Under the pieces are notes generated by a model, which saw only the letters and a list, made by a program, of their open reading frames with translations, did not search any database and was not told where the DNA came from. The position numbers and the translations under genes were made by a program. Positions 40,780-58,164 of a DNA stretch of 64,000 bases are shown here, piece by piece (position 1 is the stretch's first letter; every line of letters starts with the position of its first letter). The stretch is from Micromonospora siamensis. GTDB taxonomy: Bacteria; Actinomycetota; Actinomycetes; Mycobacteriales; Micromonosporaceae. The stretch is taken from NCBI RefSeq assembly GCF_900090305.1, contig NZ_LT607751.1:4340001-4404000 (forward strand), read 5' to 3'.

Positions 40780-43700
40780 CTATCGAGGCGGTTGAGGGTT
40801 GGCCGACAAGCTGTGACCGTTGGTGATGAGTACGCCGTCGGCAACCAACCCATCGATGAGTAGTTCGAGCCGCCGGGAGATGTCAGGTCCACGCCGCGTC
40901 CAGCCGTACAGCTTGGCCACGTGCGCACTCAGCTCCTCTCGCGCCACCCCGCCCGTGTCCCGGACGAGGTTCGCCAAGGCGAGTGAAAGCTCATCGTCGT
41001 GGATCTGATCCACGCTGCGGCTGCAGGCGTCAACAGGGCTACGGACTTCGCTGACGACGGCACCCGGCACGCGTACGAAATCCCCGTCACGATCGAGGCC
41101 AGCCTGACGGATCGCGGCATCGACGTTGTCCCTGATCCGCGACCCGATCCGGCCAATGCCCCAGCACTCGCGCAACCTCTGATGCATGACCGAAATGTGC
41201 ACGGGACCTTCGACGGCGGCAACCTCGGCGACACCGACTCTCATGGCATGTGCGCTGCCGCGTTCGCCGGGATCCGCCCAGTAGGGCAAGCGATCGACGA
41301 CCGCGGTCCGGTACGGCGTCACCCAGGTCGGTTGCAGGTCGAGAGCCGCCGCCTCGACAGTGACTGCGGGACGCTCGATGGCCTCTTCCACGCTGGACAG
41401 GAGGCCACGCACCGGGGCGGCGACAGCCTTCCCGATCGCAACCCGCAGCCGCTGTTCCTCGCCCAGCCGGTTGCGGTACCAGGCGGTGCCCCAGATGCGG
41501 TGTAGCCGCCACCCGAGGCCGCGCAGGACCTGATCACGCAGCCGGTCCCGGTCCCGGGCGACCTTGGAGGAGTGATACTGGAATCCGTCACACTCGACGC
41601 CCAACACATAGACGCCGGGCCGGTCCGGATGGCGCACCCCCATGTCGATTCGGTAACCGGCGGCGCCGACCTGCGGGGTCACCTCGTATCCCCAGGAGCG
41701 GATCACGGAGATGACCGACTCCTCGAACGGTGATTCGGCGTCGCCTCCCGTGCTGGTGTCCAGCGCCAGGGCCGCGATGCCGCGTTCGGCGTAGTCCAGG
41801 TAGCGACGCAGATGCCGCAGCCCTTCGCTCCCGGCTGCGGCAACGATGTCCGAAGCCCGCACGCTGGTGACGATCTCGTTGCGGAAGCGCGCCCGGGTGA
41901 TGGCCACGTTCAATCGCCGCCACCCGCCGGCCCGGTTCAGCGGGCCGAAGTTCATCGTCGTCTTGCCCGCCTCGTCCGGGCCATAACCGATCGAGAAGAT
42001 CATTACGTCGCGCTCGTCGCCCTGTACCGACTCCAGGTTCTTGACGAAGAATCCGTCAAGCCGGTCGTCGGTGAAGAACCGGTCGAGTTCCGGCCAGTCC
42101 TGGCGTGCCTGCTCAACGGCATGCTCGATAGCCGCCGCCTGCGCCTCGGAGAAGCTGACCACACCAAGCGTGAGGTGCGGACGGGTGACGAAGTGGTGGA
42201 TGACCCTCTCCGCAACCTTGGCCGCCTCGGTCGGATTGTCGCGCGACGAGCCACGGCGATAGGTACCGGGGACGTGGAAGAGCTCCACGCCCACGTCCGG
42301 CCCAACGTCCTCGGCACCCGGGAAGGTGATAAGACGACCCTTGTAGAACGACGAGTTCGAGAAGGCGATCAGCGCTTCGTGCCGGGACCGGTAATGCCAG
42401 CGCAGCGTGAGCGCGCGGAACTCGGCGGATCCCTTCATGAGGTCGAGGACGGACTCGAAGTCGACCCCGTCCTCGGCCTCCTCATCCCATTCGTCGCTGT
42501 CGTCGGCGACGCCAGCGGTGAAGAAGCTGGTCGGTGGGAGCTGTTTCTGATCACCGGCCGTGATGAGCGCGTCGCCCCGGTAGATGCAGTTCACGGCATC
42601 GGCGGGGGCGACCTGGCTCGCCTCGTCGAAGATTACGACGTCGAATCGCATGTCGGGCGGGAGGTACTGACTGACCGCCAGCGGCGACATCATGAAACAT
42701 GGCTTGATCGCCTGAGTGACGTGACGCGTGCGTTCCAACAGCAGCCGCACCGGCATGTGCTTCTTCTTCTTGCCGGCTTCGCGGCGAATGACGCCCGACT
42801 CGCCCAGGTTGTTGCGCGGTCGCAGGGCGTTGCAGGCGGTGATGATCCGGGATGTCGCCCCCGCGATGAGCGCCCGGTCCAGAGCGCGATACTCGCCCAC
42901 CAGTGAGTCGCGATCCTCGGCCCGCACGACACGTAGGGCCGCATCCTGGTGCAGGTGATGGTCGGCCCACTCCTGCAGCAGGGCTCGCTCCAGGACCAGC
43001 GGCACCTGATCGGCGCCGACGCCCTCGGTGATGCAGAAGTCGATTGCGGTCTCGAGTCCCACAGCGACCAGTTCAGCGCGGGCACCTTGGTACGCGAACC
43101 ACTCGTCCTGTCCGGCACTGTCGTCGCGCAGGGCCGCGATGAGGTCGCCTGCCTCCGCGTAGTCGTCGAGTTCGGTACCGAGCTCCGCGTGCCTGCTCGG
43201 TTCGAAGGCCGCCAGCAGGTCGGCCCGCGCCCCGGCCCACCGCAGTTCGATCTCGCCCAGCTGAGGCGTGGGAACGATATGCTCCAGCGCCCTGGCCTGA
43301 GCGAGGGTCAGCGGCTCATCGAAGCCCTTCGTGCTCGCGCGCATTTGTGCGGCCCAGTCCAGTGCCGTGTGCACTGACGGCAGTTCGGTCCGCTCACCTG
43401 AATAGAGCGAGCCAAGGTTCGACGAGTAGGCGTGGCCGTTCGCGGCGAGCGCGGTGTAGGCGGCGTCGACCGCCGCGCGTAGCTCAAGCAGGTGGCGGGA
43501 CTCGGCGACGGTCAACTGCCGGTCCACCGCCTGGCTGACCGCCCCTGCCAGCGCAGCCGCCGAACGCAACGGCGTCAGGTGGGTGTGCAGCCATTCGACC
43601 GCCTCCGTGATGGCAAGCAACGCGAGCTCCGGCCGTGCGGCGGGCAGCGGTTCCGGTGCCAGGCGCGACCGCCAGTCCTGCAGCCCCACGCGCGTCTCGT

Positions 43701-46287
43701 CGGCGACGGTGAGGACGCTGGTGTTGGGGGTCGCATCGACAGCGATGTGGTCGGCCAGCTTTCGCAAGTCGGTGGTGCGTGCCTGGCGGATCGCGGTATC
43801 CGCGACCGTCAACGCGTGGTCGATCCGGTCGAAGTCGGTCGATCGGCCGTCGTAGTAGGTGCCTAGGTTCTTTGCGTGCCGAGTTTCTGCCTCGGTGAGG
43901 GCGCTCGCGGCCTGCTTCCAGGCGATCGCCAACTGCAGCTGGTCACGCGCCGACTGCCAGTCGACGCCCGCGCAGGTGAGGGTCGCCAGAGTGCGCTTGT
44001 CCGCGCGGTAAGCGCCGCCGAGCTTCTTCATGCCTCGGTGGTCGTGCGTGAAGCGGTGCGCCAATCCTTCGACGTCCGCCACGAGTACGGCCTCGGAGTA
44101 GTGTGCTGCCGCTGCCTTCTCGGCCTCCAACAGGGCGACGATGGCCTGCCGGAGCGTCTGCGCGGCGCTGGCGGCTGCGGCGTGGCCCTCGGCGGACAGC
44201 CACGCACGCTCCGGACGGATGCCGCTGCCGCCGAGACCTGCCACCGTCAGAGTCGCCTCGGCATCGTCGAACGACACGACGGGCGGCAGGCCGAGCATGA
44301 CAGCCACCCCGGTGAGCGAGCGGCTGGCCGCCTGCAAGGTCTCGGCGTCGCGCGCGAAAGTGTCGGCGAGCACGGTGGCCTGCTCCGACGTAAGTCCTGC
44401 GAGGTGCAGTGGCGCGACGGTGAGATCTGCCAGCGCGGAGGCGTCGAGGTCCGGCGTGGTTTCTTTGGTCGGAATGTCGCACCAGGACACGCCCGCGGCA
44501 CGGCTGGCTGCGTCCTGCCGTTCGGCGAGTTCCCGCAATTCCGCGGCGAGACGATCCGCGGACTCCCTGGCCGAGTCGAGCGTCTCAGCGGTCAGCCACT
44601 GCTGCGGCACACCGGCAGGCTGTACCGCGCAGTGCGCGACGATGCGTGCGAGGTCGGCCGCCTGGCACAACCGGCTGACGTCGAACGCGGCGGCCAGCGG
44701 CGCATGAGCCGCGGTCACGCCGGCCAACGCGTCGAGCGCTGAAGCGGCTGCGTAGAGACGCGCGTCCAGGGAGCCGGGATGTGTGACACCACGCCAGACG
44801 AACGAGCGTCCCTGGGAGGCGGGTCGCCACGCCCTGGCCAACCCCGCGGCGGTGGCCCGAACGGTGCCGAACATCTCGACGGTCAGATCGACCGGCGCGA
44901 TGCCGCTCATCGGAGCCGCAGGCACGTGGTGCAGGTTGGCGATCATGCCGAGGACGTCGTGCAGTGAGTAGTTGAGCGGCGCCCGCGGCACGTTCATGGC
45001 ATCGGCGTACGCGTTCAGCTCCTCGCGGCGGCGCCGGGCGTTGTCCAGGTCAATGTCATTCATTCCGCTCGGGGCGACCGGAACGGTCTCCAATGCCTGC
45101 CCCAGAGCCGATGCGACCTCTTTCCGCGTCGCCTTGTGGGAGTGCAGCTCCAGCAGGTACGCGCTGAGCCCCACGTCGTGGAGCCGGTTCCGGACCACTT
45201 CGAGTGCTGCGGCCTTCTCGGATACGAACAGCACCCGCTTGCCGGCGTGCAACAGTGCGCCGATCATGTTCGCGATGGTCTGCGACTTGCCGGTTCCCGG
45301 TGGTCCGTCCATGACGAACGAGCGGCCTGCCAGCGCGGCGGCCACGCTGGCCCGCTGGGAGGAGTCGGCGTCGAGCACCAGCGGAATCCGCTCCGCCGGC
45401 ATGTCCTGGTCGATCCGTTCGTCGGTCAACTCTTCGAAGAGGAAGCCGGCGCCGCCTGAACCTCGCCCGCCTGTCGCCAGCGCCTGGATCGCCGGATGTC
45501 CGGCGACGGACGCCTCGTTGTCGAGCAGGTCGCGGTACATCGCCTCCTTCGCGAACGAGAAGTAGGAGAGCGTGACCTCGTCGTTGACCCGCCAGCCGGC
45601 CTGCCCGGCCACGGCGGCCCGCGCTTCGGCCAGGAAGGCGGCATAGGCGACGTCCTCGAGGTCGTCGACGGTCGGCAACGTGACCATGAGCTGGTTGAGC
45701 TTGAGAGTCAGCGCCGGGTTGACGACTGGGTCTTCGTCGGCACGCTGCAGCAAGGGCAACTGCCGCGCCCCGGTCGGAACGAGGCGGACCGGGACGAGCA
45801 GCAGCGGGCTGGTATACCGCGCCTTGTCACCGTCGGTCCAGGTCAGCGAGCCGAAGGCGAGGTAGAGAATCCACAGACCTCGGTCGAGGAACTCCTGGTT
45901 CGACCGACGCATGAGGTTGCGAAGCGCCGAGCTCAGATCACTGAGCGGCTTGTCCGTACGGAGGACATCTACCCGGAAAGCCTTGCCCGGTGCGCCGGAA
46001 TCAGCTGCAGGGAGGGCGCGGCCCGGTTCGGTCCGTGCGTTCTCGAACTCGTCGCTGCCCTCCTCCACAGGCCGGAACCGAAAGTAGCGGCCGGCGTTCA
46101 AACCGGCCAGGACCTCCGTGGCCGCCGGTTCAAGCACCCGGACGGCCCCCGACTTGCTCAGCCGGAAGTTGAGGAGCCGGTTCGTGCCGGAGAGGTTGAT
46201 GAGACTGTCACGCCATTGATGGATGGTGGCCTGAAGCAGCCGATCCTGCGCCGGAAGGTCTTCGTTCACGCCGGCGTTGCCGCCCAT
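40780..46287 (-). CDS. DUF4011-helicase-nuclease-DUF3320 defence protein (Hhe-like)
   Basis: 1835 aa from the ATG at 46285-46287 (GGAGAA seven bases upstream; TTG 46320 and ATG 46302 also in frame). Order: DUF4011 at the N-terminus (RDSLINLSGTNRLLNFRLSK, FLDRGLWILYLAFGSLTW); SF1/UPF1-type helicase with Walker A GPPGTGKSQTIANMI (about 325), a long inserted helical region, motif II VVIFDEASQVAPAD (about 1215), motif III GDQKQLPPTSFF and motif VI INVAITRAR-type block; a Vsr/REase-like domain (YRIDMGVRHPDR, LGVECDGFQYHSSKVARDRD, about 1545-1600); and DUF3320 (HISVMHQRLRECWGIGRI, about 1690). This architecture is the antiphage system Hhe. All ATPase motifs and the D...ExxxDGxxYH core appear intact. 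Confidence 0.87.
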   Translation of the reverse strand: MGGNAGVNEDLPAQDRLLQATIHQWRDSLINLSGTNRLLNFRLSKSGAVRVLEPAATEVLAGLNAGRYFRFRPVEEGSDEFENARTEPGRALPAADSGAPGKAFRVDVLRTDKPLSDLSSALRNLMRRSNQEFLDRGLWILYLAFGSLTWTDGDKARYTSPLLLVPVRLVPTGARQLPLLQRADEDPVVNPALTLKLNQLMVTLPTVDDLEDVAYAAFLAEARAAVAGQAGWRVNDEVTLSYFSFAKEAMYRDLLDNEASVAGHPAIQALATGGRGSGGAGFLFEELTDERIDQDMPAERIPLVLDADSSQRASVAAALAGRSFVMDGPPGTGKSQTIANMIGALLHAGKRVLFVSEKAAALEVVRNRLHDVGLSAYLLELHSHKATRKEVASALGQALETVPVAPSGMNDIDLDNARRRREELNAYADAMNVPRAPLNYSLHDVLGMIANLHHVPAAPMSGIAPVDLTVEMFGTVRATAAGLARAWRPASQGRSFVWRGVTHPGSLDARLYAAASALDALAGVTAAHAPLAAAFDVSRLCQAADLARIVAHCAVQPAGVPQQWLTAETLDSARESADRLAAELRELAERQDAASRAAGVSWCDIPTKETTPDLDASALADLTVAPLHLAGLTSEQATVLADTFARDAETLQAASRSLTGVAVMLGLPPVVSFDDAEATLTVAGLGGSGIRPERAWLSAEGHAAAASAAQTLRQAIVALLEAEKAAAAHYSEAVLVADVEGLAHRFTHDHRGMKKLGGAYRADKRTLATLTCAGVDWQSARDQLQLAIAWKQAASALTEAETRHAKNLGTYYDGRSTDFDRIDHALTVADTAIRQARTTDLRKLADHIAVDATPNTSVLTVADETRVGLQDWRSRLAPEPLPAARPELALLAITEAVEWLHTHLTPLRSAAALAGAVSQAVDRQLTVAESRHLLELRAAVDAAYTALAANGHAYSSNLGSLYSGERTELPSVHTALDWAAQMRASTKGFDEPLTLAQARALEHIVPTPQLGEIELRWAGARADLLAAFEPSRHAELGTELDDYAEAGDLIAALRDDSAGQDEWFAYQGARAELVAVGLETAIDFCITEGVGADQVPLVLERALLQEWADHHLHQDAALRVVRAEDRDSLVGEYRALDRALIAGATSRIITACNALRPRNNLGESGVIRREAGKKKKHMPVRLLLERTRHVTQAIKPCFMMSPLAVSQYLPPDMRFDVVIFDEASQVAPADAVNCIYRGDALITAGDQKQLPPTSFFTAGVADDSDEWDEEAEDGVDFESVLDLMKGSAEFRALTLRWHYRSRHEALIAFSNSSFYKGRLITFPGAEDVGPDVGVELFHVPGTYRRGSSRDNPTEAAKVAERVIHHFVTRPHLTLGVVSFSEAQAAAIEHAVEQARQDWPELDRFFTDDRLDGFFVKNLESVQGDERDVMIFSIGYGPDEAGKTTMNFGPLNRAGGWRRLNVAITRARFRNEIVTSVRASDIVAAAGSEGLRHLRRYLDYAERGIAALALDTSTGGDAESPFEESVISVIRSWGYEVTPQVGAAGYRIDMGVRHPDRPGVYVLGVECDGFQYHSSKVARDRDRLRDQVLRGLGWRLHRIWGTAWYRNRLGEEQRLRVAIGKAVAAPVRGLLSSVEEAIERPAVTVEAAALDLQPTWVTPYRTAVVDRLPYWADPGERGSAHAMRVGVAEVAAVEGPVHISVMHQRLRECWGIGRIGSRIRDNVDAAIRQAGLDRDGDFVRVPGAVVSEVRSPVDACSRSVDQIHDDELSLALANLVRDTGGVAREELSAHVAKLYGWTRRGPDISRRLELLIDGLVADGVLITNGHSLSANPQPPR

Positions 46288-46302
46288 TTCAGATTTCTCC
46301 AT

Positions 46303-46617
46303 CCGCGTTAGAGGTCTCAAGTCGGGCTACCGCGCCGTGGGGCAGGCGCCTGTGCAGGGTGTTGAAGGACTCATGTCCCCGCTAAGGAAGCGTCGACCGG
46401 CGGACGGTCGGCAGGTCACAAGGGGGATCTCAGAGGCGCTCCGCGCAGTGGTCGCGGCGTGAGCAACTCCGGAGCAGAGTGAGGTCGTCGTTCATGGAGA
46501 TCAACTCGAATGTAGAGGCGGCACCGCGGCCACGCACTCGGCCGTCCGGCTGGTCTTGAAGCACCGCCTGTCCACGGCCGGGCCTCGGGCGATCCGGCCG
46601 TGGGCGCCCGGGCTGAC
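46303..46617. other. Intergenic region downstream of the Hhe-like start
   Basis: 315 bases containing no credible gene. A short plus-strand frame (46277-46462) overlaps the Hhe-like start and has no ribosome site. The region contains the terminator hairpin of the upstream minus-strand gene (46572-46603), and presumably the Hhe-like promoter, though no -35/-10 pair was recognised. Confidence 0.4.
46572..46603 (-). terminator. Terminator hairpin after the 174-aa gene
   Basis: CCACGGCCGG (46572-46581) and CCGGCCGTGG (46594-46603) form a perfect 10-bp stem around a 12-base loop. It lies 14 bases after the stop of the minus-strand 174-aa gene. Confidence 0.65.
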
Positions 46618-47320: not shown

Positions 47321-47419
47321 CCGAAAGCGCCGAGACACCGTACGCTGCCTCGATCTCAACGGTGCGTCGCACCCAGAGACCAAGAAACAGCACGGCAGCT
47401 TTATAGGCGACCAATTGCT

Positions 47420-47437
47420 TGATAAGCCCGGTTATCA
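47420..47437. promoter_or_regulatory. Palindrome TGATAA-N6-TTATCA upstream of the hsd operon
   Basis: TGATAAGCCCGGTTATCA, flanked as TTGATAA...TTATCAG, lies 12 bases upstream of the -35 box of the hsd promoter, in the divergent gap. A second copy with a different 6-base centre lies downstream of hsdR at 55661-55678. It is a candidate operator for a dimeric regulator. Confidence 0.6.
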
Positions 47438-47448
47438 GCGTCTTTCAT

Positions 47449-47476
47449 TTGACACCTCAGAGCGAACGCCTACAGT
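47449..47476 (+). promoter_or_regulatory. Sigma-A-type promoter of the hsd operon
   Basis: TTGACA (47449-47454) and TACAGT (47471-47476) are separated by 16 bases. Transcription should begin near 47483, about 25 bases before the chosen ATG at 47509. Confidence 0.7.
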
Positions 47477-47508: not shown

Positions 47509-49545
47509 ATGCTTTCCGAGCTCATGTCGTCAGGCGAGATCGCCCAGTTGGCGCAGGTCGAGCGCCCGGTGGTGACGACGTGGCGGCGGCGGTACCCGGA
47601 CTTCCCCGGTCCGGTGCCCGGCACCAGCGGTCAGCTGCTCTTCCCTGCCGACGCGGTGCTCACCTGGCTACTGGACCGCAAGCTAGGTAACGCTGAACCG
47701 GAGATTCTGCGCGCCGAGCGCGCCTTGCACACCCTCACTGGGTATGCCCGGGAGCACGGCGGCCGCCATCTGGTGCTCTCCCTGGGCGCCGCTCTCTGTC
47801 TGCGGGAGATGTCCGGCAAGGTCCTGTCGGCTGATCCGATGAAGGCGGCTCGCCGGTTCGACCCGGAGGACGACTTCCTGCTCTCAGACCTGCGGGAGGC
47901 GCCTGCCCTACCCGATCTTCCGGGAATGGTCGAGCAGCTGATCGAGGGCGCCTACGAGGCGAACCGGGCGTACCAATTCCTGCTCGGCAACTGCGCTCGC
48001 TTCGGCTGGCCGGAGCTGAGTGCCGACGCACTCACCCCCCACCTGGTCACCCTCATCCGCCTGGCCGCCGACGTGCCGGGCCGGCTACGCGGTCGCCGCC
48101 GGATCACGGTCGGTGACCCGTACGCGGGCTCGGGCGACCTTCTCGCCGCAATGTTGACCGACCAGGATCCCGAGCCGTTCAGTTTCAACGCCGCTCAGCC
48201 GGATCCGGCCCTGGCCCGCCTGATCCGCCGCCGGCTGCTGCTGGCCGGTGTCCCCGACTTCAACATCGAGGTGGTTCCGGACGACCTGAACGACGAGTTC
48301 GCCGACGTCGACGCGGTCGTGACCCGACTGCCCTACCAGCCGACCGAGCAGCGCTACCCGGCCGAGGACCTCGACAAGATCAGCGACATCGCCGACCGGC
48401 TCGGTCCCGGCTGCACCGCCGTCGTGGTCGGCCCTGCCTCCAGCCTGGTCGACGCCCTGCGCGACACCGATGCCATCACCAAGCGGGCCGACCTGCTGAC
48501 CAGTGGCCTCGTCGAGGCGGTGGTACGACTGCCCGGCGGCATGTTCCCGGCTCGCCCCGGTCACTCCGCCGCCCTGTGGCTGCTCACTCGCGACCCGGTC
48601 GCGGCCACGCAGGGCCGCCTCCTGCTCGCTGACGTCGGTGGTGCCGCCCTCGATCAGCGCGTCGCGGAAACCACGGCCGAGGACATCCTGCTGTGGCGGG
48701 CCGAGGGCTACCGGCGCGACGGCCACGACCCGCGGACCGGCTGGGTGGTCCCACTCGACGCCCTCGACCTGCGCCGCGGTGCGGCGCTGCGGCCGCCGGG
48801 CCCGGCGTCGGTCACCATGCGGGCCCGGCTGGCCGCCGACCGGCCCGCCCTGATCGGCGAGATCGAGGGCCGTCTCACCGATGCGGAGCACGAAACCATC
48901 CGGTACGCGAAGGAACACGGTCCCCTGAGCACCGGGGCGGCACAACGCGACGGAAACCGCCCGAAGGAACTCACCCTCGGCGCCCTGCGCACCGCTCGCC
49001 GGATCCGCCCCCTTCCCGGCCACCGTCTGACCCCTGAGCATGTCGGGCCGCGGGGTCACCACCGGGTCATCGGCGCCGCGGAGGTCGTCGCGCAGTCGTC
49101 CAAGCGCTGGATGGACCGGCTCACGCTAGCCGCTGAGTACCCGCACGTCGGCCTGACCGACCCGGGTGATCTCGTCGTCACCACGGTTCCCCAGTTCGGT
49201 GTCCTCCTCGACGAGGACGGCTTCTCGGTCATCGAGTTTCCGGCCCGGGGTCTGCGTATCTCCCCCGGCGACGCCCTCACCCCGCGGGTGCTGAAGGCGC
49301 TGCTCGACACCGCACGCAACACCACCCGCAGCCCCGGCGCCGTGCGCGGCGCACGGCTGGGCGACGTGACGATTCCTGACCTGGGCCGGGACGAGGCGGC
49401 CCGCCTGGATGACGTGCTGCGTCGCCTCGACGAACGCGAGCGCCTCTTGCAACAACAGGCCGGCCTCCTTGTCGAACTGCGTGAACTCGCCGTGGCGGGC
49501 TTCGCCGACGGCACCCTCACGACTCTGTACGGTACGAACTCCTGA
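47509..49545 (+). CDS. HTH-fused, catalytically degenerate N6-adenine methyltransferase homologue
   Basis: 678 aa. The ATG at 47509 is preceded by AGGAGG eight bases upstream; earlier in-frame ATG at 47491 overlaps that site. Residues about 5-55 (SSGEIAQLAQVERPVVTTWRRRYPDFP...LLFPADAVLTWLL) form a MerR/Xis-type helix-turn-helix. The rest follows type I methylase (HsdM) order: ITVGDPYAGSGDLLAAM at 200-214 (SAM motif I, normally D-x-x-x-G-S-G-G), then VDAVVTRLPYQPTEQ (motif IV). The catalytic NPP(Y/F) is replaced by RLPY at 273-276, so methyl transfer at adenine should be lost. The gene is the first of the operon, 20 bases before the true hsdM. A regulator, or a non-catalytic subunit, is the most likely role. 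Confidence 0.75.
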   Translation: MLSELMSSGEIAQLAQVERPVVTTWRRRYPDFPGPVPGTSGQLLFPADAVLTWLLDRKLGNAEPEILRAERALHTLTGYAREHGGRHLVLSLGAALCLREMSGKVLSADPMKAARRFDPEDDFLLSDLREAPALPDLPGMVEQLIEGAYEANRAYQFLLGNCARFGWPELSADALTPHLVTLIRLAADVPGRLRGRRRITVGDPYAGSGDLLAAMLTDQDPEPFSFNAAQPDPALARLIRRRLLLAGVPDFNIEVVPDDLNDEFADVDAVVTRLPYQPTEQRYPAEDLDKISDIADRLGPGCTAVVVGPASSLVDALRDTDAITKRADLLTSGLVEAVVRLPGGMFPARPGHSAALWLLTRDPVAATQGRLLLADVGGAALDQRVAETTAEDILLWRAEGYRRDGHDPRTGWVVPLDALDLRRGAALRPPGPASVTMRARLAADRPALIGEIEGRLTDAEHETIRYAKEHGPLSTGAAQRDGNRPKELTLGALRTARRIRPLPGHRLTPEHVGPRGHHRVIGAAEVVAQSSKRWMDRLTLAAEYPHVGLTDPGDLVVTTVPQFGVLLDEDGFSVIEFPARGLRISPGDALTPRVLKALLDTARNTTRSPGAVRGARLGDVTIPDLGRDEAARLDDVLRRLDERERLLQQQAGLLVELRELAVAGFADGTLTTLYGTNS

Positions 49546-49565: not shown

Positions 49566-51182
49566 GTGCCCCCACGCAAACGTGCCAACGGACAGGGCGA
49601 GCTGCCCGGGATGTCCAGCACGAAGCAGATCCAGGACATCCTGTGGAAGGCCGCCGACAAGCTGCGCGGCTCCATGGACGCCGCACAGTACAAGGAATTC
49701 GTCCTCGGCCTGGTCTTCCTCAAGTACGTCTCCGACGCGTTCGCCGAGCGCCGCGACCAGATCGAAGCCAGCCTCTCCGACATCCCGGAGAGCCGGCACG
49801 CGGCCTTCCTCGACGACCGCGACGAGTACACCAGCGCGAACGTCTTCTGGGTCCCCGAGAACGCCCGCTGGGACTACCTGGTAGAGCACGCGCCCAACGG
49901 CGTGGGTGAGCTGCTCGACAACGCCATGGAAGCGATCATGCAGGAGAACCGGGCGCTGACCGGCGTCCTCCCGAAGATCTTCAACCGGGACAACGTCGAC
50001 CAGAAGCGGTTGAAGGAACTCGTCGACCTGATCAGCGACGCCCGCTTCACCGGTCACGGCGACCGGAAGGCCCAGGACGTCCTCGGCGAGACGTACGAGT
50101 ACTTCCTGGAACGCTTCGCCCGCGCCGAGGGCAAGCGGGCCGGCGAGTTCTACACCCCGTCCAGCGTGGTAAAGGTTCTGGTCGAGGTGCTGGAGCCCTA
50201 CGAGGGCCGGGTCTATGACCCGTGCTGCGGCTCCGGCGGCATGTTCGTGCAGTCCAAGAAGTTCGTCGAGGCGCGCGCCGGCCGCGACCACACGCACGAC
50301 ATCGCCGTCTACGGGCAGGAAGCCAACGAGCGCACCTGGCGGCTGGCGAAGATGAACCTCGCCATCCACGGAATGGACCCGGTCGGCATCGGCGACCGCT
50401 GGGCCGACACGTTCGCCGACGACAAGCACCCGGACCGGCGGGTCGACTTCGTCATGGCGAACCCGCCGTTCAACATGAGCGACTGGGCGCGCAGGGTGGG
50501 CGACCCGCGCTGGCGCTACGGTACGCCGCCGCAGAGCAACGCCAACTACGCCTGGCTCCAGCACATCCTTTACAAGCTGGGCGACCGGGGCAGCGCCGGC
50601 GTCGTCCTCGCCAACGGCTCGATGTCATCGAAGCAGTCCGGCGAAGGCGACATCCGCCGCGAAATGGTGGAGAGGGACCTGGTGGCCTGCATGGTCGCCC
50701 TCCCACCGAACCTGTTCCGCACCACCGCGATCCCCGCTTGCCTGTGGTTCCTCACCAAGGACAAGACCCCACAGGGCGCCAAGGCGCTGACCGACCGGCG
50801 CCACGAGACTCTCTTCATCGACGCTCGCGCGCTCGGCACCATGGTCGACCGCACCGAGCGCGTTTTCACCGACGACGACATCGCCAAGATCGCCGATACG
50901 TACCACGCCTGGCGCGGCACCAAGTCCGCCAAGGCCAAGGGCCAGACGTACGAGGACATCCCCGGCTTCTGCTACTCCGCCAAGCTCGATGAGGTGGCCG
51001 TCCACGACCACGTCCTCACCCCCGGCCGATACGTCGGCGCCGCTGAAGCCGAAGAAGACCCGGACGCCGAACCGCTCGCCGACCGCGTCGAACGCCTCAC
51101 CAAGGAGCTGTGCACCCACTTCGACGAGTCGGCTCGCCTCGAAGCGGTCATCCGAATGCAGCTTGGAGGACTCGATGTCTGA
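49566..51182 (+). CDS. hsdM: Type I restriction-modification methyltransferase (HsdM)
   Basis: 538 aa from a GTG at 49566. The N-terminal helical domain (QIQDILWKAADKLRGSMDA, EFVLGLVFLKYVSDAF) is that of HsdM. The catalytic core has GEFYTPSSVVKVLVEVLEP, motif I VYDPCCGSGGMFVQS (about 217-231) and motif IV VDFVMANPPFNMSDWA (NPPF at 299-302), followed by QSNANYAWLQHIL. It methylates adenine with SAM in complex with HsdS and is required for both modification and restriction. The hsdS gene begins eight bases before its end. Confidence 0.93.
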   Translation: MPPRKRANGQGELPGMSSTKQIQDILWKAADKLRGSMDAAQYKEFVLGLVFLKYVSDAFAERRDQIEASLSDIPESRHAAFLDDRDEYTSANVFWVPENARWDYLVEHAPNGVGELLDNAMEAIMQENRALTGVLPKIFNRDNVDQKRLKELVDLISDARFTGHGDRKAQDVLGETYEYFLERFARAEGKRAGEFYTPSSVVKVLVEVLEPYEGRVYDPCCGSGGMFVQSKKFVEARAGRDHTHDIAVYGQEANERTWRLAKMNLAIHGMDPVGIGDRWADTFADDKHPDRRVDFVMANPPFNMSDWARRVGDPRWRYGTPPQSNANYAWLQHILYKLGDRGSAGVVLANGSMSSKQSGEGDIRREMVERDLVACMVALPPNLFRTTAIPACLWFLTKDKTPQGAKALTDRRHETLFIDARALGTMVDRTERVFTDDDIAKIADTYHAWRGTKSAKAKGQTYEDIPGFCYSAKLDEVAVHDHVLTPGRYVGAAEAEEDPDAEPLADRVERLTKELCTHFDESARLEAVIRMQLGGLDV

Positions 51183-52299
51183 CTGGCCGACCCAAACCCT
51201 CGAAGAGTTATGCGTCCGGATAACTGTCGGGCACGTTGGCTCCATGGCACACGAGTATGTCGAGAGCGGCGTCCCGTTCCTGCGGTCGCAAAATATTAAA
51301 CGCGGCCGCCTGGACCTGTCGTCAGTTAAGTACATCAACAAGGATTTTCATCACCGGCTAGCTAAGTCACAGCTGCAGCCCGGTGACCTGGCGATTGTGC
51401 GTACCGGCGAGCCTGGCGCCACCGCCCTGATTCCGGATGATCTCGGACCGGCGAACTGTAGCGACATCGTCATCGCCCGCCCTGGTCCAGACACCGCTGC
51501 ACGGTATCTGTGTTACGCAATCAACGCCACCGCACAGCAGTTCATTGACGCACACACGGTCGGGGCCGTCCAGCAGCACTTCAACGTAGCCTCGGCGAAG
51601 CGTCTGACCGTGGCCGTACCCCCGATCGCTGTACAAAAAGCGATCGCCAGCCTTCTCGGGGCGCTCGATGACAAGATTGCGGTCAACGACCGCATCGCCG
51701 AGACCAGCTACGAGTTGGCCGCTACTGAACACGCTCGCGTGGCACAACTAGCCGGACGAGCATGCACCCTCGGCGATGTGATTGAGCTGGCTTACGGTAA
51801 AGCCCTGCCAGCGGCGCAACGCCGACCTGGGCCGGTAGCCGTCTACGGAAGCGGCGGGGTCTCGGGTTGGCATGACGAGCCGTTGGTGCGGGGCCCTGGC
51901 ATCATCGTTGGTCGTAAGGGCACGGTCGGCTCGGTTTACTGGTCCTACCGGGATTTCTTCCCGATTGACACCACGTTCTACGTCAGGCTAATTGACGACC
52001 AGCTCACGACCGAGTACGTGTACTTCCTGCTAACTCGTTTAGGCTTGAGCGAGATGAATTCGGACTCAGCTGTTCCTGGTCTAAACCGATCAAGGGCCCT
52101 GTCCGCCCCAGTGCAGCTGCCTAACCAGGAACTTATCGCCAATTTTACTGAACGCGTTCGGCCCCTGTTCGCGATGCGCGAGCAGACGGCTCGACAGAAC
52201 CAGACGCTCGCCAAGCTGCGAGACACGCTGCTTCCGGAACTTATGTCGGGGCGGTTGCGGGTCAGAGACGCCGAGAAGGTTGTCGAAGAATCGGTTTAG
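51175..52299 (+). CDS. hsdS: Type I restriction-modification specificity subunit (HsdS)
   Basis: 374 aa from the ATG at 51175 with GGAGGA upstream. It has two target-recognition half-domains, each followed by a conserved helix (AVPPIAVQKAIASLLGALDDKIAVND in the middle; TLAKLRDTLLPELMSGRLRV at the end), the normal HsdS layout. The base composition is visibly lower in GC than its neighbours, with TTA leucine codons (including codon 12) and CTA codons that are almost absent elsewhere in the window. This is typical of recently exchanged recognition domains. It determines the DNA sequence recognised by the complex. Confidence 0.92.
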   Translation: MSDWPTQTLEELCVRITVGHVGSMAHEYVESGVPFLRSQNIKRGRLDLSSVKYINKDFHHRLAKSQLQPGDLAIVRTGEPGATALIPDDLGPANCSDIVIARPGPDTAARYLCYAINATAQQFIDAHTVGAVQQHFNVASAKRLTVAVPPIAVQKAIASLLGALDDKIAVNDRIAETSYELAATEHARVAQLAGRACTLGDVIELAYGKALPAAQRRPGPVAVYGSGGVSGWHDEPLVRGPGIIVGRKGTVGSVYWSYRDFFPIDTTFYVRLIDDQLTTEYVYFLLTRLGLSEMNSDSAVPGLNRSRALSAPVQLPNQELIANFTERVRPLFAMREQTARQNQTLAKLRDTLLPELMSGRLRVRDAEKVVEESV

Positions 52300-52330
52300 C
52301 TAGGTGAACGGTTCACGGGGAGGGGTTGTG

Positions 52331-55300
52331 ATGGGTGCAGGCGGGTGGATGAGCGAGGCGGACTGGGAGGCGCTCGCGCTGGACCATCTCGGTGAGCTCG
52401 GGTGGGAGCCGGGTGCCGGAAAGGATTTTGCGCCGGGCTCGGGGCAGCGGCAGTCGTGGGCCGATCTCGTACTCATCGACGACCTGCGGGCCACGATCGA
52501 ACGGCTCAACCCCGACCTGCCGCCCGCAGCGGTCGCCGACGCGGTGCGAGCCGCCACCGACGCGGCCAGCCGGGAGGCGTTCGCCGAGAACCGGGCGGCG
52601 CACGAACGGCTGGTCCACGGCATCCGCTCGATCACGTACACCGATGCGTTCGGCGCTGAGCACACCCCCACCGTGCGCCTGGCCGACCTGGACGACCCCG
52701 GCCGCAACGTCTACCGGGCGATCAACCAGGTCACGATCGTCGACGGCGACTTCCGACGCCGGTTCGACATCGTGCTGTACCTCAACGGTCTGCCGGTGGC
52801 GATCGTCGAGCTGAAGAACGCCGCCGACGAGAACGCCACCCTGACGGGCGCGCACGCCCAGCTTCAGGCGTATCGCGCGGAGTTCCCGCTCGCCTTCCGG
52901 CACGCCGTCCTGTGCCTGATCTCCGACGGGGTCACCGCGAAGTACGGCACCCCGTTCACCCCCTACGAGCACTTCGCGCCGTGGAACGTCGACGACGAGG
53001 GCGACCGCGTCGACACCACCTCGCCCGACTACGACGGCCCGGAAGCGCTCATCGTCGCCCTCTATGGACTGTTCACCCAGCGGCGCTTTCTGGAGCTCAC
53101 CGGGGGCTTCGTCAACTTCACGTCGAAGGCAAAACGGATCGCGAAGGCGCACCAACACTTCGCGGTCGTCCGGGCCGTCGAGTGCATCGTGCGGGCGTCG
53201 CAGAGCGACGGGAAGGCGGGCGTCGTCTGGCACACCCAGGGCTCCGGCAAGTCCGAGGAGATGGTGTGCACGGCGGCGTTGACCGCCCGCCACCCTGCCC
53301 TGAAGAACCCGACCATCGTGGTGCTCACCGACCGCACCGACCTCGACGACCAGCTCTTCGAGACGTTCCGCGACAGCCAGGCGCTGCTGGGCCAGGAGCC
53401 GGAGCAGGCCGACACCCGAGCCGAACTGCGAGACAAGCTGTCGAACCGGAACGCCGGCGGCATCATCTTCACCACGTTGCAGAAGTTCGGGCGTACGAAG
53501 GAGGAGCGCGACGCCGGGAGGCCGCATCCGCTCCTCTCCGACCGGCGCAACATCCTCGTGATCGTCGACGAGGCGCACCGCAGTCACTACGACAGCCTGG
53601 ACGGCTACGCCCGACACCTGCGCGACGCGCTGCCGCACGCGACGTTCATCGCCTTCACCGGCACCCCGATCGCCAGCGCCGAGGTGAACACCCGCGCCGT
53701 CTTCGGCGACTACATCGACGTGTACGACCTCAAGCGTGCCGTCGACGACGAGGCGACCGTGCGGGTCTACCACGAGCCGCGGATCATTCCGGTGTCGCTG
53801 CCGCCAGACATCGACCCGGAGAGCATCGACGAGCAGGTGGAGCAGCTCACCGCCAGCCTGGACGACGCGGAGCGGCGCAGGGCCGAGGCGTACGCGGCCA
53901 CCATGAACACCGTCTACGGCGCCCCCGACCGGGTCGAGATCCTTGCGAATGACCTCGTCGAGCACTGGGAGAAGCGGCGGGAGCTGATGCGACCGCAGCT
54001 CGGCGGGCCGGGCAAGGCGATGCTCGTCTGCGCGACGCGGGAGATCTGCGTCCGCGTCTTCGACGCTCTCAAGGAGCTGCGGCCCGACTGGGCCGACCCG
54101 GCTGTCGACAAGGGCAAGATGAAGATCGTCTTCCATGGGGTGCCCAGCGACAAGGAGATGCTACGCCCACACCACCTGCGCCCGTCGCAGCAGAAGACCA
54201 TCCAGGCCCGCGCCAAGGACCCGGACGACGAGCTGGAGTTGCTCATCGTGCACTCGATGCTGCTCACCGGCTACGACGCGCCGCCGATCCACACCATCTA
54301 CATGGACCGGCCGATGAAGGGCGCCAACCTGATGCAGGCGCTCGCCCGGGTCAACCGGCGGTTCCGGGAGAAGCAGGACGGCCTGCTGGTCGGCTACGCC
54401 CCGCTGACCGAGAACCTGCGCAAGGCGCTCACCGAGTACACGCCAAGCGACCAGGAGGACCAGACCCTCGGCCGCGAGATCGAGCGTGCCATCAGCGAGG
54501 TGCACAACGAGATCTCCGTCCTCGAAGCCATGCTGACCTCGGTCAAGTGGCGCGAGATCCTGGACGACGAGACGGACCCGACCCGCTGGCGCCGGGCCGT
54601 GAAGAAGGCCGCCAACTTCCTGCGCAACCCGCGAACCCCCGGCAACGACGTGGAGCCCGGCACGAAGCCGCTGCACCGCCGTTTCCGGGACTCGGCGGGC
54701 CGGCTGGAACGGTTCTACACACTCTGCGCAACCAGCCGCGACTTCGCCGAACGCGCTGGCGACATCCAGCGGATGCGCCGCGACATCCACTACTTTCGGG
54801 ACGTCCGGGTCTGGATCGTCAAGGAGGAGGCCGCCGACCGGGAGGCCAAGGGCCTGCCCAACACGGCCGAGGTGGAACGCTACCTGTCCCAGCTCGCCGC
54901 CGAGGTGGTCGACGCCGCCGACATCACCGACATCTACGAAGAAGCGGGCCTCGGGAAGCTCGACATCACCGAGCTCAACGGGGTGGCGCTGGAGCGCCTG
55001 CAGAACTCGGAGACCCCCCACCTGGCCGCCGCGGCGCTGCGACGGCTGATCGAGCGGAAGATGCGCGAGGTCACCAAGCACAACGTGGTCCGTCAGGAGC
55101 GCTTCTCCGCCCAGCTCGAAGACCTGATGAACCGCTACATGCGTCAGCAGCTGACCAGCGCGCAGCTGATCGTCGAGCTGGTCGAGTTGGCCAAGCAGGT
55201 GTCCGCCGACGCTCGGCGCGGTCACCAGTTCGACCCTCCGCTCAACCACGCCGAACTGGCCTTCTACGACGCCGTCGCCCAGAACGGCGCCGCTACGGAG

Positions 55301-55540
55301 CTGATGAACGTCGGCACGCTCGCGGAGATAGCCCGAGAGCTGGTGAAGTCGATCCAGTCCTCGATCACCGTGGACTGGTTCTCCCGTGAGCCGGTACGCG
55401 CCAAGCTGCGCAGTCACATCCGCCGGCTGCTGGCCCGATACGACTACCCGCCGGACCACGAGCGCGCCGCCGTCGACCTGGTCATCCGCCAGATGGAGAC
55501 CTTCGCCAACGAGTGGTCACCCGCAGCGTCAACGAGATAG
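52331..55540 (+). CDS. hsdR: Type I restriction endonuclease subunit (HsdR)
   Basis: 1069 aa from the ATG at 52331 (GGGGAGG upstream; GTG at 52304 is the longer alternative). Domains: the N-terminal PD-(D/E)XK nuclease with FDIVLYLNGLPVAIVELKN (catalytic E-x-K near residue 160), SF2 helicase with Walker A VVWHTQGSGKSEEMV (about 303), IVVLTDRTDLDDQL, DEAH motif VIVDEAHRSHYD (about 411), motif III FIAFTGTPI, and motif VI AAPPIHTIYMDRPMKG-type/QALARVNRRF, then a C-terminal helical domain. ATP-driven translocation and cleavage far from the recognition site are its role. All four hsd-type genes are one transcript. Confidence 0.92.
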   Translation: MGAGGWMSEADWEALALDHLGELGWEPGAGKDFAPGSGQRQSWADLVLIDDLRATIERLNPDLPPAAVADAVRAATDAASREAFAENRAAHERLVHGIRSITYTDAFGAEHTPTVRLADLDDPGRNVYRAINQVTIVDGDFRRRFDIVLYLNGLPVAIVELKNAADENATLTGAHAQLQAYRAEFPLAFRHAVLCLISDGVTAKYGTPFTPYEHFAPWNVDDEGDRVDTTSPDYDGPEALIVALYGLFTQRRFLELTGGFVNFTSKAKRIAKAHQHFAVVRAVECIVRASQSDGKAGVVWHTQGSGKSEEMVCTAALTARHPALKNPTIVVLTDRTDLDDQLFETFRDSQALLGQEPEQADTRAELRDKLSNRNAGGIIFTTLQKFGRTKEERDAGRPHPLLSDRRNILVIVDEAHRSHYDSLDGYARHLRDALPHATFIAFTGTPIASAEVNTRAVFGDYIDVYDLKRAVDDEATVRVYHEPRIIPVSLPPDIDPESIDEQVEQLTASLDDAERRRAEAYAATMNTVYGAPDRVEILANDLVEHWEKRRELMRPQLGGPGKAMLVCATREICVRVFDALKELRPDWADPAVDKGKMKIVFHGVPSDKEMLRPHHLRPSQQKTIQARAKDPDDELELLIVHSMLLTGYDAPPIHTIYMDRPMKGANLMQALARVNRRFREKQDGLLVGYAPLTENLRKALTEYTPSDQEDQTLGREIERAISEVHNEISVLEAMLTSVKWREILDDETDPTRWRRAVKKAANFLRNPRTPGNDVEPGTKPLHRRFRDSAGRLERFYTLCATSRDFAERAGDIQRMRRDIHYFRDVRVWIVKEEAADREAKGLPNTAEVERYLSQLAAEVVDAADITDIYEEAGLGKLDITELNGVALERLQNSETPHLAAAALRRLIERKMREVTKHNVVRQERFSAQLEDLMNRYMRQQLTSAQLIVELVELAKQVSADARRGHQFDPPLNHAELAFYDAVAQNGAATELMNVGTLAEIARELVKSIQSSITVDWFSREPVRAKLRSHIRRLLARYDYPPDHERAAVDLVIRQMETFANEWSPAASTR

Positions 55541-55660
55541 CGACGTCGCCTCGGACGTTAAGGAGGCGCCTCGGGTTGAGTTGTCGGGCGTCTTCGAGAG
55601 AGTGAACCAATGCTCGACTGGCGCACATCTGCGTTGAGAGCCCGCGAACCCCACGTGGTC

Positions 55661-55678
55661 TGATAACGCGGGTTATCA
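55661..55678. promoter_or_regulatory. Second palindrome TGATAA-N6-TTATCA downstream of hsdR
   Basis: TGATAACGCGGGTTATCA lies in the 260-base gap between hsdR and a lipoprotein gene, 123 bases before that gene's ATG. It has the same arms and spacing as the one upstream of the hsd operon. The rest of the gap (55541-55800) holds no gene that I can support. Confidence 0.6.
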
Positions 55679-55800
55679 ATGCTTCGAAGCCTTCCGCCTG
55701 GACTCCGGGCCATGGCTCCTGTTGTGATTCATGGGCGTCGACGAAATGCCGATCCGGCGAGTCGACCAGCAACCCCACTTCTTCCGACAGGAGCTTCAGC

Positions 55801-56328
55801 ATGCGCAAGATCGCCACCCTCGCCCTGCTCGCCACCGGTCTCATTGCGCTCGGCTGCGGCGCCGGGACCACCGACGACACCGGCAGCTCGGACAACAGCG
55901 GCAGCGGCACGAGCGAGGACAAGCCGAAGACGGCGAAGATCGGCAAGCCGGCCCGGGACGGCAAGTTCGAGTTCACGGTGAAGTCAACCAAGTGCGGCGT
56001 CGCCAAGATCGGCGACAGCACTCTCGGCGCCAAGGCGCAGGGCCAGTTCTGCCTGGTGACGATGACCGTCAAGAACATCGGCAAGGAAGCGCAGATGTTC
56101 GACGGCAGCAGCCAGAAGGCGTACGCGGCCGACGGCACCGAATACTCCGCCGACGGCGGCGCGGCCATCTACGCCAACCAGAACGCGGAGACGTTCCTCA
56201 ACGACATCAACCCCGGCAACCAGGTCAGCGGCGTCGTCGTCTTCGACATCCCGAAGAGCGTCAAGCTCACCAAGCTCGAGCTGCACGACTCGCCGTTCTC
56301 CGGCGGCGTCACCGTCTCCCTCGGCTGA
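55801..56328 (+). CDS. DUF4352-type lipoprotein
   Basis: 175 aa, ATG after AGGAG. A signal peptide with lipobox (TGLIALGC) is followed by a Ser/Gly/Asp-rich linker and a telokin-like DUF4352 domain (FEFTVKSTKCGVAKIG, FCLVTMTVKNIGKEAQMFDG, QVSGVVVFDIPKSVKLTKLELHD). DUF4352 proteins are cell-surface immunoglobulin-fold proteins, frequent in Gram-positives and of unknown role. A strong terminator follows, so it is a single-gene transcript. No link to the hsd operon is visible besides the palindrome upstream. Confidence 0.8.
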   Translation: MRKIATLALLATGLIALGCGAGTTDDTGSSDNSGSGTSEDKPKTAKIGKPARDGKFEFTVKSTKCGVAKIGDSTLGAKAQGQFCLVTMTVKNIGKEAQMFDGSSQKAYAADGTEYSADGGAAIYANQNAETFLNDINPGNQVSGVVVFDIPKSVKLTKLELHDSPFSGGVTVSLG

Positions 56329-56338
56329 TCGCGCCTCG

Positions 56339-56372
56339 GCCGAGGGTGGGACCCGCGAAGCCCACCCTCGGC
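56339..56372 (+). terminator. Terminator hairpin after the DUF4352 lipoprotein gene
   Basis: GCCGAGGGTGGG (56339-56350) pairs perfectly with CCCACCCTCGGC (56361-56372) around a 10-base loop, 10 bases after the stop. Confidence 0.78.
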
Positions 56373-56424
56373 CCCAGGTCCACCGCACCACCGCCAGCCC
56401 GAATCTCTACGCGAGGAGATGGAC

Positions 56425-58164
56425 ATGCGCAGTGCGACGAACCGCGCCGGCACCACCCCGAGACACCGCCGGCGCCGCTCCCCCAACCAGCCCGCCCTCT
56501 TCGAGTGCCCGCTGCCACCCGCCCCGGCGGGCACCCACCCGACCACCGTCTACCGGCTCACCGTTGCGCCGGACCCCGACGGGCTGTTGTCGGCGCTGAA
56601 CACGGACTACCTGCGGGAGAACGGCATCGAGCCGACCCCTCGGCAGGTCGCCGGCGCACCGGCGCTGCTGGTGCACGGCACCGTGCACCGCGCTCGCGCC
56701 GAGTGGTGTGACGTACTGGCCGGGCTCGTCGGCGAGGACGTCGACCTCGGCTACAGCAGCGGCGGCGGCGCCCTGCTGCTGGCGGTCGACGACCAGGCGT
56801 ACGCCCTCGCCTACGGCACCCTCGGCCGCTTCATGATCGAACACGAGACGTTCGACCGGACGTTCGGCGTGTCCTTCGCCGTCCGGGCACTGCTGCCGAG
56901 TGATATCCGCCAGGTCCGCCGACGGATGCTGGGTGCCAGCGGCCGGGTGGACCGCAGCCTGGTGCCCGGCGGTCAGCCCATCTGGAGGTACGGCATCGAC
57001 AAGTGGGGCGAGATCGTCGGCCAGGTCTGCGGCCGCACCCACAACCCGAACCTGACCGCGTGCCGCCGGACCGGCCGGCCGGTCAAGGTCGAGGGCGGCG
57101 ACGCGCTGCACATCCCTCTCTGCGTCGAGCCCGAAGGGCTCCTCGCAGACCTGCGGGAGATCGACCGCGTGTGCCACCAGGAATCTCCGTTGGCCGACCT
57201 GGAGTTCATCACGCAGATCCGGCCGATACCGACGTCCGACCCACGGGTTGCCGACCTCGTCAGCACCATCGATCAGCGGCTGGCGCTGGCCGAGCCGCCC
57301 GAGCTGGGCCTGGCCATACCCGGTGATCTGATCGCCGACATCGAGCACGTCGGGTCGTACCGAATCCAGGTGCCCAAGTCCGCGCGGCGGCCGAGCCTGA
57401 CCACGGAGCTGGACCTGGCCGCGATCCTCGCGCACACCAACCGGGCGCTCGACGGTGACCGGTGGACCGGCCTGCAGAAGGGGACCCTCACGCTCTACGC
57501 CGACGCCGGTGGAAACGACGAGATGGTGCCCACCCGGATCTCCCGATGGATCACCGCCGAGGTGGCCCACGGCACGAGCCACCTGCTGCTGCACGAGGAC
57601 CGGTGGTACGAGATCGGCGACCGGCACCGGGAGTTCCTGAGCCAGGAGATCCGCCAGATCTTGGACCAACCCTCCCAGATCGTCCTGCCGCCGTGGACCG
57701 GCGACCTGCCCGACGAAGACGCCTACAACCGGGCGGTCGCCAAGCGGGACAACCGGTTCATCCTGCTCGACAAGAAGCTCGTGCGCACGGCTCAGCACCC
57801 GCGCGGGATCGAGGCGTGCGACCTGCTCGGCCCGGGTGACGAACTGATCCACGTCAAGCGCGCCTCCGGCAGCTCGCCGCTGAGCCATCTCTTCGCCCAG
57901 GGAATCACCTCCGCCGAGGCACTGCGCTACGACGAGGAGGCCCGTGCCACCTTCCTCGACCTGGTCGAGCGGCAACCCAATGGCCGGAAGCTCCCCGGAA
58001 GCTTCCGGCCGCGCAAGGTCGTCTACGCCATCGCCCTCAAGGCGGGCCGGACGGTCACCGTCGACACGCTCTTCACCTTCGCCCAGGTGGCTCTCTACCA
58101 GGCGATGAAGACGCTGCGCAACGAAGGTGTCGAAGTCGAGGTCGTGCCGATCCCCGCCGCCTGA
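56425..58164 (+). CDS. DUF6119 / TIGR04141 family protein (sporadically distributed)
   Basis: 579 aa from the ATG at 56425; GAGGAG is six bases upstream of it and abuts the alternative ATG at 56419. The C-terminal two thirds match the DUF6119 family: WITAEVAHGTSHLLLHEDRWYEIGD, a DLPDEDAYNRAVAKR segment, FILLDKKLVRTAQHPRGIEACDLL, HVKRASGSSPLSHLFAQGITSAE. These proteins occur sporadically beside restriction, methylation and other defence genes and have no established biochemical function. Its nearest upstream neighbour is a restriction operon, which fits that pattern. The N-terminus (basic, disordered, then VYRLTVAPDPDGLLSALNT) is the usual opening. Confidence 0.8.
   Translation: MRSATNRAGTTPRHRRRRSPNQPALFECPLPPAPAGTHPTTVYRLTVAPDPDGLLSALNTDYLRENGIEPTPRQVAGAPALLVHGTVHRARAEWCDVLAGLVGEDVDLGYSSGGGALLLAVDDQAYALAYGTLGRFMIEHETFDRTFGVSFAVRALLPSDIRQVRRRMLGASGRVDRSLVPGGQPIWRYGIDKWGEIVGQVCGRTHNPNLTACRRTGRPVKVEGGDALHIPLCVEPEGLLADLREIDRVCHQESPLADLEFITQIRPIPTSDPRVADLVSTIDQRLALAEPPELGLAIPGDLIADIEHVGSYRIQVPKSARRPSLTTELDLAAILAHTNRALDGDRWTGLQKGTLTLYADAGGNDEMVPTRISRWITAEVAHGTSHLLLHEDRWYEIGDRHREFLSQEIRQILDQPSQIVLPPWTGDLPDEDAYNRAVAKRDNRFILLDKKLVRTAQHPRGIEACDLLGPGDELIHVKRASGSSPLSHLFAQGITSAEALRYDEEARATFLDLVERQPNGRKLPGSFRPRKVVYAIALKAGRTVTVDTLFTFAQVALYQAMKTLRNEGVEVEVVPIPAA

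Follow-up and report, generated by a model that had tools for sequence, protein, structure and literature searches.

A predicted control protein of methyltransferase origin at the head of a type I restriction operon in Micromonospora siamensis

The C proteins of type II restriction-modification systems are small XRE-type helix-turn-helix (HTH) proteins, and M.EcoRII, M.SsoII and M.Ecl18kI are working cytosine methyltransferases. These three enzymes are also fusions of a type II methyltransferase with a transcription factor (PMC12707154). The transcription of type I restriction operons is little understood (PMC12707154). The subject of this report is a gene of Micromonospora siamensis, called X, which leads a type I operon at positions 47509..49545 of a 64,000-nucleotide stretch (contig NZ_LT607751.1, 4,340,001 to 4,404,000), called the window. 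X is very probably an autoregulatory transcription factor of the whole operon, made from a decommissioned HsdM-type methyltransferase, a reading that rests on sequence and model comparisons.

Like M.EcoRII, M.SsoII and M.Ecl18kI, X joins a regulatory DNA-binding part to a methyltransferase and is predicted to control its own system; unlike them, it is an HsdM-type (adenine) protein without the catalytic motif, stands first in a type I operon and includes half of an HsdS-like subunit (half-S). It was accordingly not placed with the active methyltransferase-repressor fusions of that type, its catalytic motif being replaced. Similar in genetic setting is HsdC, the C-family control protein of the Mycoplasma gallisepticum type I system, which is encoded upstream of hsdM, hsdS and hsdR and binds its own promoter (PMC5282649; PMC12707154). 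HsdC and, by prediction, X are control genes ahead of hsdM, S and R, and HsdC targets the promoter of its own operon plus further promoters; its site, however, consists of direct repeats, (GTGTTAN5)2, as opposed to the palindrome of 20 base pairs (bp) predicted for X, and HsdC is called a C protein while X carries a pseudo-methyltransferase and a half-S. RptR, too, is encoded first in type I operons and has a site conserved in their promoters, but it is a repressor of 79 amino acids (aa) with TAGCTA sites, traced across Gammaproteobacteria (PMC12255303). Equating X with RptR was rejected, given 678 aa and a predicted site CTGATAAC-N4-GTTATCAG in place of TAGCTA. The operon is composed as follows.

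47509..49545, plus strand: X, an HTH, pseudo-methyltransferase and half-S protein of 678 aa; predicted control protein, first gene of the hsdMSR operon
47509..47679, plus strand: N-terminal MerR/HTH_17-like HTH of X, residues 1-57, recognition helix RPVVTTWRRR (domain comparison; helix/operator covariation)
47692..48816, plus strand: HsdM-like fold of X, residues 62-436 (fold and profile comparison)
48115-48138, plus strand: motif I-like DPYAGSGD, inside the HsdM-like fold
48325-48336, plus strand: RLPY replacing NPPF, inside the HsdM-like fold
48946..49509, plus strand: domain resembling a target recognition domain (TRD) and long C-terminal helix of X, residues 480-667, half-S-like (predicted model and VIA alignments)
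49566..51182, plus strand: hsdM, Pfam HsdM_N and N6_Mtase (E 3e-106), NPPF across orthologues
51175..52299, plus strand: hsdS, Methylase_S in two stretches, its start overlapping hsdM by 8 nucleotides (nt)
52304..55540, plus strand: hsdR, with HSDR_N, SWI2_SNF2 and T1RH-like_C, TIGR00348 above cut-off; GTG start, alternative GTG at 52328

A preliminary description of this DNA had recognized the winged HTH, the HsdM fold order, DPYAGSGD as motif I, RLPY in place of NPP(Y/F) and the full hsdMSR set behind; all of this is confirmed, and the half HsdS at the C-terminus had been missed. The type I set behind X is intact, with hsdM, hsdS and hsdR all matched by Pfam and PADLOC. Among 38 wider loci, 35 have hsdM after X in the same orientation, and hsdR was found in 34. 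Those without hsdM after X are L072 (contig end), L074 (no hsd gene found) and L075 (a short X, no hsd gene); hsdR was additionally not found in L068 (contig end), and L056 and L078 have extra DNA between hsdS and hsdR.

The best VIA matches of the X model are HsdM-type proteins, and fold and profile comparison gives X an HsdM-like fold with motif I. The fold and motif order are thus those of HsdM in type I systems, without NPPF and with an added HTH and half-S. VIA alignments to 7eew, DrdV, CamA and M.BseCI extend through the TRD-like region, with a large overall root mean square deviation; searching solved structures with the X sequence found no match. Foldseek and VIA on the whole X model hardly probe the HTH, so that the absence of a family there excludes nothing. 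Two further assignments were rejected: X is not a type II C protein, being a 678-aa protein with a MerR/HTH_17-like HTH and a pseudo-methyltransferase, nor a MADS member, as no NCBIfam family covers it. The operon's hsdM reaches 48.8 bits with MAD2, where the cut-off is 720, and the PADLOC matches of X to mad2 (E 2e-11) and mad1 (E 0.009) are a distant likeness only. The open-licence literature searched, including passages of a BREX survey (PMC12839542), yielded no account of a type I system controlled by an HTH-pseudo-methyltransferase. X is best described as a variant of the restriction-modification control proteins, and a methyltransferase-derived, non-catalytic type I controller appears undescribed in that literature.

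Predicted operator and recognition helix

Upstream of X, two elements are predicted.

47419..47438, plus strand: predicted operator 1, TTGATAAGCCCGGTTATCAG, an 8+4+8 dyad conserved across X loci; one of two genomic core sites
47449..47476, plus strand: predicted X-hsdMSR promoter, -35 TTGACA (47449-47454) and -10 TACAGT (47471-47476) with a 16-bp spacer; the -10 is 32 nt after the operator

The predicted operator form is a 20-bp palindrome ahead of X, CTGATAAC-N4-GTTATCAG or a variant of it. At the X promoter this conserved palindrome lies upstream of the -35, where it may serve as an autoregulatory site of the kind that C proteins have. Counting the window, 12 close orthologues have it ahead of X, as TGATAACCCGGGTTATCA or a near form in one six-member clade and as TGTTATCCCGGGATAACA in the other six, and the same dyad was found at loci where X is only 25-48% identical. 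The best score for TGATAAC-N4-GTTATCA was 12-14 of 14 in 27 of the 38 upstream regions of the wider loci, against 3 of 1292 random stretches, and the remaining 11 have dyads of the forms TGTTATC (6), TGTTAAG (2), TGATAGC (2) and CGATAAG (1). When five half-site variants were allowed, all 39 loci of this first set (window included) scored at least 12 of 16.

These five variants were picked after inspection of the first set, and they were then applied unchanged to a held-out set of 28 loci from another order. Of these, 27 were scorable (L150, where no HTH was located, was left out; L152 and L153 share their site sequence), and 25 of the 27 scored at least 12 of 16, compared with 6 of 877 controls. 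The remaining two, L139 and L146, both with GCGATAAG-N4-GTTATCGC dyads, scored 11, as 65 of the 877 controls do. When the best 8+4+8 dyad within 300 nt was sought without a preset motif, its left arm contained GATA, GTTA or GGTA in 59/65 loci, ties included.

The operator logo over 31 divergent loci reads CTGATAACCCGGGTTATCAG; its chief further signal is TAnnnT 32 nt downstream, and the -35 is poorly conserved. At 30-34 nt behind the operator, TAnnnT occurs in 36/39 loci of the first set versus 23/1900 random positions, and at 30-33 nt in 24/27 held-out loci. Across the whole 6.25-Mb genome, TGATAA-N6-TTATCA with at most one mismatch occurs at two places only, 47420 and 55661.

Which protein, then, reads this palindrome? 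The answer suggested by the loci is X itself, because the operator variants track its recognition helix. Eight loci, in two separate groups, encode an X with Ala at residue 21: KPAV/KPAI (L003-L006, L051, L052) and RQAV (L077, L079). In all 8, T replaces A as the third base of the half-site (TGTTATC, TGTTAAG), a change never seen in the remaining 57 loci whose helix could be parsed; no helix was parsed in L075. The KDVV pair (L061, L062) in turn carries the TGATAGC half-site. This covariation is good evidence that the HTH of X would bind the predicted palindrome.

Catalytic and cofactor motifs

Alignment by hhalign pairs the RLPY of X with the NPPF of the HsdM encoded in the same operon (98%, E 1.6e-13), so that X has RLPY where an active HsdM has [NDS]PP[FYW]. 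The X family was counted as 106 proteins of at least 560 aa, window protein included, with the P0113/P0114 type and shorter fragments set aside; here the catalytic Asn position holds R, Q, L, T, H, A or V, and N, D or S in 0/106. In a second, more distant set, [NDS]PP[FYW] matched in 0/82 (77 new, 5 repeats). The neighbouring HsdM orthologues keep NPPF in 35/35. The position is thus non-catalytic in nearly all orthologues, as the preliminary description had supposed, and an intact NPPY in most relatives, which it had named as telling against its proposal, was not seen. As part of the whole control-protein reading, it is very likely that X does not methylate.

The same description had expected the pocket for S-adenosylmethionine (SAM) to be kept, and in this it was not borne out. 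Asp203 is kept in 104 of the 106 family members, motif I GxG in 61 and the motif II acidic residue in 72 (Gln231 in the window protein), and motif I has gone from the X of L077-L079. Since the SAM motifs decay across the family, X would not be a uniformly conserved SAM binder, and the constraint on SAM binding looks weak.

Relatives that probably remain catalytic, to judge from their motifs, are the P0113/P0114-type proteins of Streptomyces and related genera, which by alignment share the HTH-methyltransferase-TRD layout at 27-29% identity to X. Unlike X, they have HPPF, NPPF, NPPY, SPPF or APPF, found in 19 of 20 P0114-type loci examined. No X-type operator within 3 mismatches was present in these 20, and another HsdM-like gene lies in the flank of 3. 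P0114-type cousins were present in 28/197 genomes sampled.

Proposed mechanism and alternatives

How would such a protein act? X would probably work as a dimer, its two copies joined through the pseudo-methyltransferase body and the C-terminal half-S helix, and its N-terminal HTH would bind the 20-bp palindrome just upstream of its own promoter; the TRD-like part may add to operator binding or serve dimerization. Bound there, X would set the expression of the whole X-hsdM-hsdS-hsdR operon, in a direction and with an effect on restriction that are both predicted, and perhaps it also controls accessory genes carrying the same operator. No further operator-like site was found between X and the end of hsdR in the window, and no TGATAAC-form operator inside X-M-S-R of the 38 loci, a scan for that form alone, which does not bear on L003-L006, L051 and L052 with their variant half-sites. 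With one operator ahead of the operon and none found inside, X should switch X-M-S-R together. A separate X-controlled hsdR promoter that times restriction behind modification was rejected on these scans. The timing role that the preliminary description had given X is not supported; the other half of its proposal, a non-catalytic control protein of the operon, is supported by a palindrome of the same type at the X promoter in two separate locus sets and by variants that follow the recognition helix.

Does X activate or repress? The comparison favours activation, possibly with repression at high dose, because the spacing from operator to -10 is nearly fixed while the -35 is poorly conserved. 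There is a real, if less than even, chance that X is a repressor instead, which, like RptR, would bind upstream to keep the operon silent and let go when infection or establishment occurs. The known type I regulators do repress, namely RptR (PMC12255303) and, apparently, the M. gallisepticum control protein (PMC12707154), and the promoter in the window has a good -35, TTGACA. However, the operator overlaps none of the -35, the -10 and the predicted start: in the window it ends 10 bp before the -35, and its centre is about 54 bp before the predicted transcription start. The near-fixed distance to the -10, together with the poor conservation of the -35, suits activation better.

Several points weigh against X as an autoregulatory transcription factor. 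With the TGATAAC motif alone, L003-L006, L051, L077 and L079 fall within the control range, and the spaced -10 is missing in L062, L074 and L077 of the first set and in L139, L141 and L146 of the held-out set. X loci within a family are related, so that the counts are not independent events. The second operator-like sites of the window, L002, L047 and L048, described below, have no TAnnnT at the standard spacing, which makes their use uncertain. The Pfam HTH matches of the window protein fall below cut-off, and a model of its HTH by itself, made with no alignment, was poor (pLDDT, the model's confidence score, 66.8) and was not used for a fold search. DPPF is kept in 3 of the 38 X proteins of the fetched loci (L063, L064 and L076, all leading hsdMSR; the X of L075 was too short for motif scoring), and these relatives may perhaps be intermediates that are still catalytic. 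Finally, reading X through its HTH only leaves the C-terminal half-S unaccounted for.

A role for the half-S is offered by a tentative and rather doubtful reading, in which X forms a homodimer that is an M2S-like machine out of service: its two pseudo-HsdM bodies and its two half-S parts would pair in the manner of a type I methyltransferase, yet clamp one fixed palindrome, the HTHs reading the outer half-sites and the TRDs its core. Exchange with free HsdM or HsdS could then report accumulated modification enzyme.

Could X sense methylation? The preliminary description had offered a sensor of the HsdS-modified state, and this is weakened by the operon's own specificity subunit. In 11 comparisons between close orthologues, HsdS is 17-60% identical (the 17% from a partly detected hsdS), and the TRD-like C-terminal part of X is 74-89% identical; with HsdS variable and X constant, the TRD of X does not follow the target of the enzyme. 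X might still sense SAM, or methylation of its own TRD target, and alter its operator binding, as M.EcoRII does with methylated sites (PMC12707154). The motif I glycines kept in part of the family would agree with this, and so would a TRD-like part that is conserved and distinct from the operon's HsdS. It is nevertheless unlikely, as both motif I and the acidic residue of motif II erode across the family, and an operator-like dyad persists in L077-L079, where motif I is gone.

Slightly less likely again is that X is a structural pseudo-subunit, whose HsdM-like body and half-S pair with HsdM or HsdS and tune assembly or specificity, with the HTH as a DNA anchor. A reverse survey covered 24 HsdM loci, window included, with a flank of only 1-1.5 kb before hsdM. 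Nine have a clear X before hsdM, every one with an HsdM of at least 55.9% identity, and four have just a partial or weak match: a scrap of the C-terminus in L087, a C-terminal part lying 0.8 kb away in L090, and a weak C-terminal match in L095 and L096. No X match lies within that flank in 10 loci, namely L086 (61%), L093, L099 and all 7 scorable loci with HsdM below 55% identity; L104 was unscored (contig end). Because HsdM relatives without X occur, this type I enzyme does not always need X, which looks like an add-on to this enzyme type and not an obligate subunit. The exchange of HsdS while X stays constant also speaks against a subunit, and the covariation of HTH and operator fits a transcription factor, although a double role would be compatible with it.

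It is highly improbable that some unrelated host regulator uses the palindrome and that X does something else: the genome's only two core sites both lie in the window, the dyad also precedes X in L074, where no hsd genes were found, and the operator changes together with X's own recognition helix.

With X as a transcription factor of its operon, an actinobacterial type I system found in several families has a predicted regulator together with a defined operator of 20 bp, and its candidate regulon extends to other island genes. If true, it is an example of a methyltransferase losing catalysis and turning into a transcription factor; if the M2S-like machine is also real, a modification enzyme has been converted into the switch of its own defence island. 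The pair of X and operator would be a practical handle on restriction in antibiotic-producing actinomycetes.

Second predicted operator, neighbouring genes and distribution

Around the operon lie the following features, the last from other loci.

55660..55679, plus strand: predicted operator 2, CTGATAACGCGGGTTATCAA, behind hsdR, 121 bp ahead of the lipoprotein gene and lacking a -10 box at the usual distance
55801..56328, plus strand: DUF4352 lipoprotein-like gene (PF11611, E 1e-29), candidate member of the X regulon
56419..58164, plus strand: TIGR04141/DUF6119 gene, behind the lipoprotein gene
40780-46320, minus strand: 1846-aa DUF4011/AAA helicase/MTES_1575 nuclease protein; among NCBIfam families it matches ProA best, with 1176 bits where the cut-off is 1500; PADLOC PDC-S37 and Hhe
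L003 6704-9076, minus strand, and L076 17312-19750, plus strand: SMC_N/AAA_23-type ATPase, divergent from X across the operator in 9/38 loci

A relative of the lipoprotein occurs in 10 of the 38 X loci; in 9 it is divergent from X, and in L002 it follows hsdR and has an operator to itself, the arrangement also seen in the window. The frame 55731-56711 was rejected as a neighbour gene, its matches being shadows of the lipoprotein gene at 55801-56328. The SMC_N/AAA_23-type ATPase was matched in 17/38 X loci and gave no match in the window; in 9 of the 17 the match is on the strand opposite to X and begins within 700 bp of it. Where the ATPase gene lies apart, in L067 and L076, an operator of its own precedes it, followed by TAnnnT at 32 and 33 nt. 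This ATPase is a candidate accessory defence gene under X control. L047 and L048 have an extra operator-like copy about 7.4 kb upstream of X and about 90 bp before a protein of 267-268 aa, which by eye has an N-terminal membrane segment.

The TIGR04141/DUF6119 gene accompanies X operons: in 7/38 loci it lies upstream of X in the opposite orientation, and in the window it stands downstream behind an operator copy; the open-licence literature match for it concerned plant genes. The 1846-aa helicase/nuclease protein beside the hsd operon places the operon in a defence island, and close relatives of this protein are on the same side in L002 (92%) and L049 (83%).

X matches were found in 23 of 300 genomes of the family and in 16 of 394 of the class (query P0040), the window's own genome included in both, and in 28 of 347 genomes of the order of G493 (query A3). 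Relatives of X are also on 6 plasmid records of Streptomyces, Arthrobacter and Paenarthrobacter (among them NZ_CP109103.1, NZ_CP101138.1 and NZ_CP015733.1), so the gene is present on mobile DNA as well; 4 of these 6 records are predicted to be conjugative.
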